Below, one piece after another: positions 34,850-62,493 of a stretch of 64,000 nt of DNA. The stretch lies in assembly GCF_900107995.1 (NCBI RefSeq), contig NZ_FNUM01000001.1, positions 321,695-385,694 of the forward strand. The letters are read 5' to 3'. The position numbers and the translations under genes were made by a program. The first letter of the stretch is position 1; the number at the start of each line of letters is the position of its first letter. The notes under the pieces were generated by a model that saw nothing but the letters and a program-made list of their open reading frames with translations, searched no databases and had not been told where the DNA came from. Source of the stretch: Alcanivorax sp. DSM 26293. Its GTDB lineage: Bacteria; Pseudomonadota; Gammaproteobacteria; Pseudomonadales; Alcanivoracaceae.

Positions 34850-34991
34850 CAAGGTTCGCCATGCAAGCATAGCTCCTACAGCGCCATCAGCGCTTTTGCA
34901 GAAATGAAACGCGGGCACAGCCTGGCAGTTTTAAACACCAGACTCGCCCGCGCTTTTTTACTTTCAACTTTGAACGTTCAACTCAACCGAA
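34850..34991. repeat. REP remnant, stem-loop and heptad array
   Basis: A REP-like half unit lies at about 34853-34880. A CGCGGGC/GCCCGCG stem (about 34912-34953) runs into T residues, giving a plus-strand terminator for the crotonase gene. The array TTTCAAC, TTTGAAC and GTTCAAC (34962-34982) ends 9 bases from the degP stop, so in the minus direction degP is followed by heptads and then the stem. Confidence 0.7.
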
Positions 34992-41379: not shown

Positions 41380-41386
41380 AAGAGCA

Positions 41387-41652
41387 GTTGAAAGTGTAAA
41401 GTTCAAAGTTGAAACGCGATGACGGCCTTCCTGACAACAAGGGCGAAGGCCGCGTTCAGACGCTTTCAGGAAACACGGATGTAGGAGCGCCACTTGAGGC
41501 GCGAATTACCCCCCGTGGCTGTTCGCGCCTCAAGCGGCGCTCCCAAAGTAGCTTAGTAGAAGATCTCTTCCTGCAGAGAAACGCGGCCACCCTGCTCTCC
41601 GTTTGGCAACGAACATCAACCGCGTTTCAACTTTGAACGTTAAACTTTCAAC
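41387..41652. repeat. heptad arrays flanking a REP pair between CaiB and globin genes
   Basis: Plus-strand units of the GTTGAAA type occupy 41387-41414; their mirror (TTTCAAC type) occupies 41625-41652. Between them lie a GGCCTTC/GAAGGCC stem (about 41424-41452) and a facing REP pair (about 41480-41545, GTAGGAGCGC...GCGCTCC). The right array contains the globin stop codon. Confidence 0.75.
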
Positions 41653-42080
41653 TCACGCCTTTTGCTCAACTGCGCATACAGATTATCCATCACCCGAAAG
41701 GAGATATGCCGCGCCCGGTCGGTATAGGGGCCGGCGAAACGGCCGTCGAGATTGTTCATGAAATGCTGCAGCCAGCGTTCATGATGCTCACCCGTCAGCG
41801 GCTGTTTGTCATCCAGGGCCCGGTGTTTGGCCATCATGTGGCGCCGGTAGTCAGTCTCACCCAGCAGCATCTTGTACCAGTACTGGCAGATGGTGGGCAG
41901 GTGCTGCTGCAGATCAATGGCAGCCACATCCAGGAACATGGGCGCCATCACCGGATCATCCAGCAACCGGCGATAAAAGCCATGGACCATGGCATCGATA
42001 TTCTCCCGACAATCCAGATCGGGTAGCGCGCTGTCTTGCTGCGGGGAAATGCCGGGTTGAAAGTGCTGAACAACGGTCAT
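41640..42080 (-). CDS. group III truncated hemoglobin
   Basis: 146 residues with a 2-on-2 globin fold. ENIDAMVHGFYRRLLDDPVMAPMF matches the N-terminal helices (B/C region) of group III globins, a His in the E helix (DLQQHLPTICQYWYKMLLG) precedes the proximal His of the F helix, and the H helix is VMDNLYAQL. Such proteins bind oxygen or NO, perhaps passing electrons under low oxygen. The final residues ELKV and the TAA are formed by the heptad repeat that follows, so the C-terminus may have been altered by repeat growth. Confidence 0.85.
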   Translation of the reverse strand: MTVVQHFQPGISPQQDSALPDLDCRENIDAMVHGFYRRLLDDPVMAPMFLDVAAIDLQQHLPTICQYWYKMLLGETDYRRHMMAKHRALDDKQPLTGEHHERWLQHFMNNLDGRFAGPYTDRARHISFRVMDNLYAQLSKRRELKV

Positions 42081-60143: not shown

Positions 60144-61400
60144 TTGGATACCTACTCTGACGGGTGGCTGATAGGCGCCCTGATTGCCCTGATTCTTGGC
60201 TCTGCCTTCTTCTCCAGCAGTGAAACCGGCATGGTGGCGATCAACCGCTACCGACTGCGTCATCTGGCCCGCCAGGGTAACAAGGCCGCTTCCCGGGTGG
60301 AGGGGCTGCTCAAGCGTACCGATCGGCTCTTGTCCGTCATCCTGATCGGTAACAATTTCGTCAATAATTTCGCTGCTACTGTGGCCGCCATTCTGGCGAT
60401 CCGCTGGCTGGGCGACAGCGGGGCTGCGGTGGCGCCGGTGGTGATCACGATCATCATGCTGGTGTTTGCCGAAATTACCCCGAAGACCTATGCAGCCATG
60501 AAGCCCGAGCGCGTGGCCTTCCCCGCCAGTGTGCTGCTGAAACCCTTGCAGGTGCTGCTTGCCCCCCTGGTGTGGATGGTCAACGGCGTCAGCATGATGC
60601 TGCTGCGGCTGGGCGGCATCCGTCCCCATGACCAGGACGACGATCACCTGAGTCCGGAGGAGCTGCGTACCGTGGTCAATGAAGCCGGCGGCCTGATCCC
60701 GGAAAATCACCAGAAGATGCTGCTCAATATCCTCGACCTGGAAACGGTGACCGTGGAAGACATCATGGTGCCCCGCAACGAGATGGTGGGTATTGATCTC
60801 GAGGATGACATGCACGAGATCCTCACCACCCTGCGCGCCAGCCAGCACACCCGCCTGCCGGTTTTCAACGGTGACCCGAACAACATGATTGGCCTGCTCC
60901 ACCTGCGCAAGCTCAGCCGCTTGTTGCTCAAGGATGACATCAACAAGGCAGAGCTGATGCAGCACACAGTGGAGCCCTACTTTGTCCCCGAGGGTACCTC
61001 CCTGCACCAGCAGCTGATCAACTTCCAGAATGCCAAACGCCGTATCGGCATCGTGGTGGATGAATACGGCGATGTGCTCGGCCTGGTGACCCTGGAAGAC
61101 ATTCTCGAAGAGATCGTCGGCGAATTCACCACCGACCTGGCCGCCAGCAGTCCGGACATCCACCCCCAGGACGACGACAGCTATGTCATCGATGGCTCCG
61201 CCACTCTGCGCGAAATCAACCGCAGCCTGGACTGGGAACTGCCCACCGATGGACCCAAGACCCTCAATGGCCTGATTCTGGAATACCTGCAGGACATCCC
61301 CGATGCCAACATTTCGATAAAGATCGATCAATACCAGATCGAGATCCTGCAGGTGAAGGACAATATGGTGAAGGCGGTGAAGGCCAGGAAAGCAGGGTAA
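60144..61400 (+). CDS. corB: HlyC/CorC-family (CorB/YfjD) membrane protein
   Basis: 418 residues: a DUF21 membrane domain (about 1-190, SETGMVAINRYRLRHL, EITPKTYAAM), two CBS domains (about 200-320, MVPRNEMVGI) and a CorC-HlyC domain at the end (VIDGSATLREINR). Family members transport Mg2+ or regulate its efflux. The start is a TTG at 60144; no ATG fits. Heptads begin immediately after the stop codon. Confidence 0.93.
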   Translation: MDTYSDGWLIGALIALILGSAFFSSSETGMVAINRYRLRHLARQGNKAASRVEGLLKRTDRLLSVILIGNNFVNNFAATVAAILAIRWLGDSGAAVAPVVITIIMLVFAEITPKTYAAMKPERVAFPASVLLKPLQVLLAPLVWMVNGVSMMLLRLGGIRPHDQDDDHLSPEELRTVVNEAGGLIPENHQKMLLNILDLETVTVEDIMVPRNEMVGIDLEDDMHEILTTLRASQHTRLPVFNGDPNNMIGLLHLRKLSRLLLKDDINKAELMQHTVEPYFVPEGTSLHQQLINFQNAKRRIGIVVDEYGDVLGLVTLEDILEEIVGEFTTDLAASSPDIHPQDDDSYVIDGSATLREINRSLDWELPTDGPKTLNGLILEYLQDIPDANISIKIDQYQIEILQVKDNMVKAVKARKAG

Positions 61401-61566
61401 GTTGACAGTTGATAGTGGACAGTTGACAGCGTCGCGATAAAGGGTACTTTGAACTGAAACGCAAGAGGCCGCGCCCATGCTTTGTACGCGGCCTCTTGCG
61501 TTTCAGTTCAAAGCTAACTCGGAACGCGTAGCTGTCAACTGTCCACTATCAACTGTCAACTGCCCT
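61401..61566. repeat. bidirectional heptad/stem-loop element between corB and patatin
   Basis: Two perfect nested inverted repeats. The outer arms are 30 bases each (61401-61430 and 61531-61560), made of four 7-nt units of GTTGACA type plus GC. The inner arms are 27 bases each (61447-61473 and 61487-61513) with a 13-base loop. The left outer arm directly abuts the corB stop; the right one ends 6 bases from the patatin stop. Confidence 0.92.
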
Positions 61567-62493
61567 TCAAACCCTATCCGCTACCGGTGAGCCCACCCAG
61601 GCGAGGATGTCGGCTTCATAGCGTTTAACCAGCGAACGCCCCTCTTCGATGGCTTCCTTGGCGCGATGAAAATCCATCAGCGCAAAATCCTCCAGCAAGG
61701 GCACCAAGGTGACTTCCGGCGGATCACCAGCCATTCGAGAACGGGTGATGCGGTCCTGCATGATATTGATACTGGACGCCACCACATCAAAGAAACCCGG
61801 GTCTTCATCGTCTTCGGAGATGAAGTAACCCATCATCTTGTGCCAGATGCTGCGCTCTTCGTCACTGCCGTCTTCCCCTTCGGCCTGGGTGCGGGTATCC
61901 CGGGACAGGTGGGCGCCAACCAGCTGGGCATTGAGGTTCACGGCGATGACCACATCCGCCCCCATGGCACGGGCGGCAGACACCGGTACCGGGTTGACCA
62001 GGCCCCCATCCAGCATCCAGCGACCCTGCATTTTTACCGGAGAGAACAACCCCGGCAGTGCACAGGATGCCCGGGCGGCATCCAGCATGGTGCCTTTGGT
62101 GATCCAGATTTCCCGGCCACTCTTCATGTCCGTGGCCACAGTCACCAGCTTTTTCTCCAGGGTTTCAATATCCGGGTTGTCATGATGCTCACGAAAGAAA
62201 TTAAACAATTTCTCCCCCTTCACCATGCCCCCAGACAGACTGATATCCAGCAGCCCGAACACATCCTTGACGGTGAGCGACTGCACCCAGTCAGCGAATT
62301 CATTCAGCGTGTTGGTAACGTAGGCACCCCCCACCAGCGCACCAATGGAGGTCCCTGCCACCACCTGGGGCTGTACGCCGATTTCCTCCAATCCCTGGAT
62401 CACACCGATGTGGGCCCAGCCCCGGGCAGAACCACTGCCCAGCGCCAAACCGACCACCGGCTTGTGAGGCGCCTGATCATGAATATTCGTCAT
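61567..62493 (-). CDS. patatin-like phospholipase (RssA/NTE family)
   Basis: 308 residues. It has the Ser-Asp dyad hydrolase: oxyanion glycine loop GSGSARGWAHIGV, nucleophile GTSIG (Ser in VVAGTSIGALVGG) and DGGLVNPVPV with the Asp. Family members (RssA, YchK) are cytoplasmic lysophospholipase-like proteins. It is the third gene of an operon; its ATG overlaps the DUF1289 stop (ATGA). Confidence 0.92.
   Translation of the reverse strand: MTNIHDQAPHKPVVGLALGSGSARGWAHIGVIQGLEEIGVQPQVVAGTSIGALVGGAYVTNTLNEFADWVQSLTVKDVFGLLDISLSGGMVKGEKLFNFFREHHDNPDIETLEKKLVTVATDMKSGREIWITKGTMLDAARASCALPGLFSPVKMQGRWMLDGGLVNPVPVSAARAMGADVVIAVNLNAQLVGAHLSRDTRTQAEGEDGSDEERSIWHKMMGYFISEDDEDPGFFDVVASSINIMQDRITRSRMAGDPPEVTLVPLLEDFALMDFHRAKEAIEEGRSLVKRYEADILAWVGSPVADRV

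Follow-up and report, generated by a model that had tools for sequence, protein, structure and literature searches.

The window, a stretch of 64,000 nucleotides from an Alcanivorax genome near A. jadensis and others (G000:C7:321695-385694), contains a corB-like gene (60144..61400, + strand) that converges on a patatin-like gene (61567..62493, - strand), both names being those of the preliminary description. The gap between the two genes is filled by an outer and an inner inverted repeat. The left outer arm (61400..61430, + strand; AGTTGACAGTTGATAGTGGACAGTTGACAGC) consists of the heptads AGTTGAC AGTTGAT AGTGGAC AGTTGAC followed by AGC, and the same four heptads stand inverted in the right outer arm (61531..61561, - strand). 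On the interior side of each arm there is a CGCG box (61433..61436 on the left, 61525..61528 on the right), which is frequent in the wider element family. The inner hairpin is made up of a left half (61447..61473, + strand), a loop of 13 bases (61474..61486) and a right half (61487..61513, - strand). Its left half contains the conserved family core GAGGCCGCG at 61465-61473 and its right half the core CGCGGCCTC at 61487-61495, which is followed by a terminator-like tail, TTGCGTTT, at 61496-61503, with the other-strand mirror at 61457-61464. The left arm begins with the last A of the corB stop codon (TAA, 61398..61400, + strand), and 5 bp separate the right arm from the patatin stop codon (TGA, 61567..61569, - strand).

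The preliminary description had reported a heptad palindrome of outer and inner perfect inverted repeats, with four heptads in each outer arm and with arms at or near both stop codons, and all of this was confirmed. Its inner arms of 27 bp around a 13-base loop also stood, with perfect pairing between 61447-61473 and 61487-61513, but the outer arms were found to be perfectly complementary over 31 bp rather than 30 bp (95% over 37 bp). A single perfect arm of 57 bp does not exist, as 16-17 nt of poorly pairing sequence stand between the outer and the inner arms. Arrays of at least three heptads did not arise in any of 50 Markov shuffles of the window, and a chance origin of the heptad arms is excluded. 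The predicted RNA fold of the element had an energy of -129.9 kcal/mol, compared with -48.4 ± 4 in shuffles (z = -20), and its stem is long enough for cutting by RNase III. There is no GGG in the heptads, and thus no G-tract for a quadruplex. An Rfam search of the element gave no match at gathering score, with weak matches far below it.

Searching the same genome for similar elements yielded about 40 loci. The family was present in 17 of 17 Alcanivorax genomes and in none of the 11 other genera of the order covered by the same search. Arrays of four heptads were found in all 17 Alcanivorax genomes and in 13 of 13 from a sister genus, which the named loci point to as Alloalcanivorax; the rest of the taxonomic family had hardly any. 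The unit was of similar length across copies, about 160 bp, and ran from a heptad arm through AGC, CGCG, some 25 nt peculiar to the locus, the GAAACGCAAGAGGCCGCGCCCA hairpin, another 25 nt or so and a second CGCG to the inverted heptad arm. The interior was mostly 103-107 bp long with mostly unconserved spacers, and the hairpin, which was 31 nt in 57 of 61 copies, had T-rich tails (TTGCGTTT) conserved on both strands across the family. With gene contexts taken from a crude gene finder, 51 of 75 elements lay between convergent genes versus 30 of 139 gaps that were 100 bp or longer (p = 3e-11), and most stop codons fell in the range between 20 nt within the arms and about 6 nt beyond them. Termination of both convergent genes, as had been proposed at the outset, is probable, as predicted from the convergent site and the hairpin with its T-rich tails.

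The family also included short forms with interiors of 30-40 nt that adjoined the start codons of neighbouring genes (L232-L235), elements that enclosed another core (for example, a terminator at C7:388335) and forms that lacked the hairpin or lay between divergent genes. Because the dispersed arrays of other lineages (G274, G276 and G124) were mostly single, the 160-bp palindrome may be a form confined to the family to which Alcanivorax belongs. One locus (L231, G003 C16) showed a partial duplication, in which a stretch about the size of a short gene lies between an intact element and a second right half with a near-identical spacer.

Heptads fitted the consensus A[AG]T[TG][GA]A[CT] and fell into the dialects GTTGAC, GTTAAC, AATTAAT and AATTGAT, with one dialect running across all eight units of an element. 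Both arms agreed in dialect in 72 of 76 elements, only 13 of 620 heptads deviated at position 5 from their own arm, and the order of the units varied between the two arms. When arms were shuffled within a dialect, an element's own arms matched no better than foreign ones (3.09 vs 2.77 mismatches per 28 for GTTGAC, P = 0.91; 4.54 vs 4.44 per 28 for GTTAAC, P = 0.66). The perfection of the window's arms is that of a common GTTGAC sentence, which occupied both arms of 5 of the 23 GTTGAC copies. Because own arms were no closer than foreign arms and differed in unit order, dialect is a property of the whole unit, and the arms are neither copied from nor corrected by each other. The active arm-to-arm correction suggested in the preliminary description was rejected on the strength of this shuffle and of the copy of the window element in G001, the nearest relative with the element, which is 97% identical and has single-arm changes that break both outer and inner pairing; independent drift of the arms, which the preliminary description had named as contrary evidence, was thus seen there. 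A further candidate, that the 7-bp period serves to provide stop codons in all three frames, was rejected as a general function, since the GTTGAC sentence has no stop in one frame.

Comparison between genomes revealed that elements at the corB/patatin site were replaced as a whole. Strains DG881 and NORP25 had wholly different elements beside patatin genes that were 98% identical. The elements of A. jadensis and G001 were also wholly different, with the dialect switched in both arms, and the corB end was nearly identical over the aligned stretch. In two genomes with patatin genes 79% identical (L061 and L063), the same element was found inverted, 55 of 60 spacer letters agreeing in a manual count of the printed spacers; a different element was common to A. 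jadensis and G006. Near-copies were also present at unrelated sites within G000 (L037/L043 and C7:118198/L034), with homology that stopped at the arms. A target-site duplication was not visible at the two relocated pairs, and a clean empty site was not found among the genomes compared. These comparisons indicate that the unit behaves as a cassette that is swapped whole between genomes. The recent formation claimed in the preliminary description holds only in the form of frequent whole-element replacement at the corB/patatin site, not as perfection kept by correction. In the corB/patatin gaps of L070 (Alloalcanivorax) and L076 (titled Alcanivorax sp.) there was no full element, and short degenerate heptads with very different words, CTAGGGG and TCTCTGG, followed the patatin stop.

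Heptad elements were linked physically, phyletically and in dialect to genes for S23p (PF05635/TIGR02436), the 23S rRNA intervening-sequence protein, which is a four-helix bundle. In G003, an inverted pair of GTTGAC heptads (L230) encloses an S23p open reading frame (PF05635 match, E = 4.5e-21). Period-7 arrays were present in 55 of the 102 windows flanking 51 untruncated gammaproteobacterial S23p loci, compared with 1 of 306 control windows; neither periods of 4-6 nor those of 8-12 gave a comparable signal, and period 14 represents 7 doubled. Arrays were located on 63 of 116 S23p sides versus 1 of 17 other gaps in the same loci, nearly half of the S23p sides being without an array at the threshold used; arrays occurred in 8-13% of Alcanivorax intergenic gaps in general. 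The left word matched the inverted right word around S23p far better than in shuffled pairs (18.8 vs 6.1 ± 0.7, n = 32). Period-7 arrays also adjoined 12 of 12 plasmid S23p genes examined, most with a word of their own, in a sample from Treponema, Bernardetia, Monoglobus, Chlorohelix and cyanobacteria (Spirochaetota, Bacteroidota, Bacillota, Chloroflexota and Cyanobacteriota). The second S23p paralog of G000 (C7:197229) adjoins an AGCTTGT array.

Of the genomes in the family of Alcanivorax, all 28 that are rich in heptads had PF05635, as did 1 of the remaining 18 (p = 1e-11). The two exceptions within the heptad genera, G305 and G015, which we take to be A. borkumensis SK2, were without S23p and had hardly any intact heptads; the hairpin cores of G015 were intact and its arms had decayed. 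G328 had S23p without the Alcanivorax type of heptad, and G221 had dispersed AGTTGAA arrays and a different word at its S23p gene. Within the literature searched, beyond which most subscription papers and preprints lay, no report linking S23p genes to heptad arrays was found. S23p is homologous to Avd of diversity-generating retroelements (PMC10053308), and its solved relatives, 2RLD and 2GSC, have five chains each. S23p genes inside cas loci have been described (PMC3936711), and S23p genes with heptad arrays were found inside defence operons on plasmids of Anabaena and Pseudanabaena (L337 and L338) and in Monoglobus (L334), where the sites of the S23p cassette were the interval from cas2 to cas1, a position immediately upstream of cas1, and the interval from hsdS to hsdR.

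The S23p-bearing member of the family in G000 (C12:45869-46177, L310) lies between glyA and nrdR, as named from the flanking translations, a location at which S23p-B is bracketed by matched inverted heptads whose dialect differs between species. The S23p-B tree had two clades (support 100/98), which in each of the two genera coincided with whether heptad position 5 was G or A, and about 10 S23p residues switched with the dialect (for example, Q/Y, S/H, L/I and E/D). Since the S23p-B clades track the dialect while the G/A split requires 8 changes on the trees of the flanking genes, at least 5 of them forced, the S23p gene and both arms move as one cassette. Because they travel together, the dialect matching in cis can be a matter of linkage. 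In trans, among 22 related genomes, those with G-type S23p were richer in dispersed G-type heptads (p = 0.002, uncorrected for phylogeny), a correlation that was also seen, likewise uncorrected, within Alcanivorax only (p = 0.0005) and with the genome's own cassette left out (p = 0.004). Several genomes with GTTGAC-type S23p still had mostly GTTAAC-type elements (15 vs 307 in G001).

The window element probably derives from a heptad-armed S23p cassette, having no S23p but carrying a terminator, and would work in the manner of REPIN/RAYT systems, in which a gene is flanked by repeats that it supposedly acts on and gene-less palindromes are dispersed through the genome. The heptad family with S23p has the same two components, a repeat-flanked gene and dispersed gene-less palindromes, but S23p is not a tyrosine HUH nuclease, the units are heptads, and the RAYT-like loci inspected have separate REPs. 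In this arrangement, the gene-bearing member would be S23p between glyA and nrdR with inverted heptads of one dialect around it, and in the dispersed members the place of the S23p gene would be taken by the conserved hairpin, flanked on either side by a T-rich tail; the window element has no room for a PF05635 open reading frame. The hairpin probably ends transcription of both convergent genes, as a putative working terminator. S23p may bind the heptad arms, either as DNA or as folded RNA, and may be needed to keep or spread them, so that a role of S23p in heptad upkeep is inferred from these sequence associations. Strand exchange would be left to other enzymes because S23p has no known catalytic domain, arm binding assisted by host recombination being the simplest proposal. 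A reverse transcriptase was rejected as the mobilizing enzyme: no RVT_1 was detected in G000, G003, G004, G006 and other genomes with many elements, and it was present in G015, which has no such elements. A resident reverse transcriptase is unnecessary for the elements. A phage or plasmid origin was also rejected, as the exact arm was absent from viral contigs and the sole plasmid match was a 32-bp heptad array in Crinalium. That array (L250; cyanobacterial plasmid pCRI9333.07, 1501-1532) is 97% identical to the GTTGAC arm over 32 bp and overlaps the first hsdS codons.

A plain bidirectional intrinsic terminator kept by selection, with heptads that are simply 3' untranslated sequence containing stops and with a coincidental S23p, would account for the convergent position, for stop codons at or inside the arms and for the conserved, very stable hairpin with TTGCGTTT tails on both sides. 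We consider it unlikely, since it leaves unexplained the matching dialect of the two arms, the near-copies at unrelated sites, the replacement of whole elements beside genes that are 98-99% identical, the hairpin-less and divergent-gene forms and the association with S23p; moreover, a terminator scan with a loop limit of 8 nt did not call the window copy, with its 13-nt loop. That the heptads are simple repeats formed by slippage without any dedicated protein, with S23p landing in repeat-prone gaps, is quite improbable. Long uniform arrays such as AGCTTGT and the AGTGAAC runs of G006, and the variable order of units within dialects, are what slippage might leave, but only period 7 was enriched, both at S23p and in Alcanivorax stretches, the words on the two sides of S23p match in inverted orientation, few of the intergenic gaps in the same genomes have arrays, and the loss of S23p accompanies decay of the arms.

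It is very improbable that the elements are conventional MITEs moved by a DDE or HUH transposase, or REPs moved by a RAYT, even though they have terminal inverted repeats, many copies and relocated copies, and RAYT-like Y1_Tnp genes exist in these genomes. The two RAYT-like loci inspected (G000 C7) have different REPs of their own (GTTGGAGCCTTGCTCGCAAGG and others), the relocated pairs lack a visible target duplication, and among the loci examined the gene found within heptad arms was S23p and never a transposase. The view in the preliminary description of a palindrome that either formed recently or owes its perfection to correction between the arms, for which template switching would be a route, draws on the perfect arms of the window copy and of other GTTGAC copies, but the within-dialect comparison of own and foreign arms and the single-arm changes in the closest relative, G001, make it extremely unlikely.

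Several known repeats resemble the heptad family in part. The 23S rRNA intervening sequence of Coxiella burnetii (PMC4990558) has terminal inverted repeats of about 28 bp, heptamers (GACAGAT), an S23p open reading frame in its gene-bearing form and, at -143 kcal/mol, a fold that is very stable like that of the window element. In contrast, the heptad elements are intergenic rather than in 23S rRNA, the window copy lying between two protein genes with a hairpin core instead of S23p, and they form many dispersed copies in several dialects. The GGGAATC repeats of Xanthomonas (PMC4692102) are likewise mostly of four units in inverted pairs (70-75), beside stop codons and at positions fixed between species, but their word is G-rich and quadruplex forming, and the available part of that source reports no S23p link or dialect matching. 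The TAACTGA repeats of Beggiatoaceae (PMC4679880) are short heptamer arrays of related words that abut coding sequences; unlike the heptad elements, they are direct, lie upstream of start codons and almost never form inverted pairs.

The link between S23p and heptads suggests that a protein and dispersed DNA repeats are paired here in a new way. More tentatively, S23p may be a sequence-matched partner, each lineage reading or helping to write its own 7-base word, and the cassette with its gene-less relatives may then represent a new type of small homing element present in several phyla. If so, it would explain both the heptamer repeats of bacteria and the intervening-sequence protein of 23S rRNA, and two old puzzles, the over-representation of heptamers in gaps and the role of the four-helix protein, would become one testable question. 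The dialect switch, position 5 (G/A) against about 10 S23p residues, offers naturally occurring pairs, both matched and mismatched, with which binding and exchange could be assayed.

ERIC, RU and YPAL are intergenic palindromes of 130-170 bp for which a mobilizer is not known, and we know of no heptad arms or partner gene in them. Their likeness to the heptad elements lies in size and intergenic palindromic form. Within G000, RAYT-like Y1_Tnp genes lie amid REP arrays of their own (GTTGGAGCCTTGCTCGCAAGGCGAA; TGTGGGAAGCGATGCTTGCATCGCGAA) at C7:225900-231200 (L165). Elsewhere in the window, an inverted heptad pair of the GTTGAA/GTTCAA dialect (41386-41653) encloses a REP-like GTAGGAGCG inverted repeat and is conserved in G001, and a single GTTGAA-type array (34956-34983) is shorter in G001. 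At the gap at C7:246768 of G000, comparison with G001 revealed GTTGAA heptads in one species and AGCTTCT units (about 12 on the left) in the other, both as inverted pairs.
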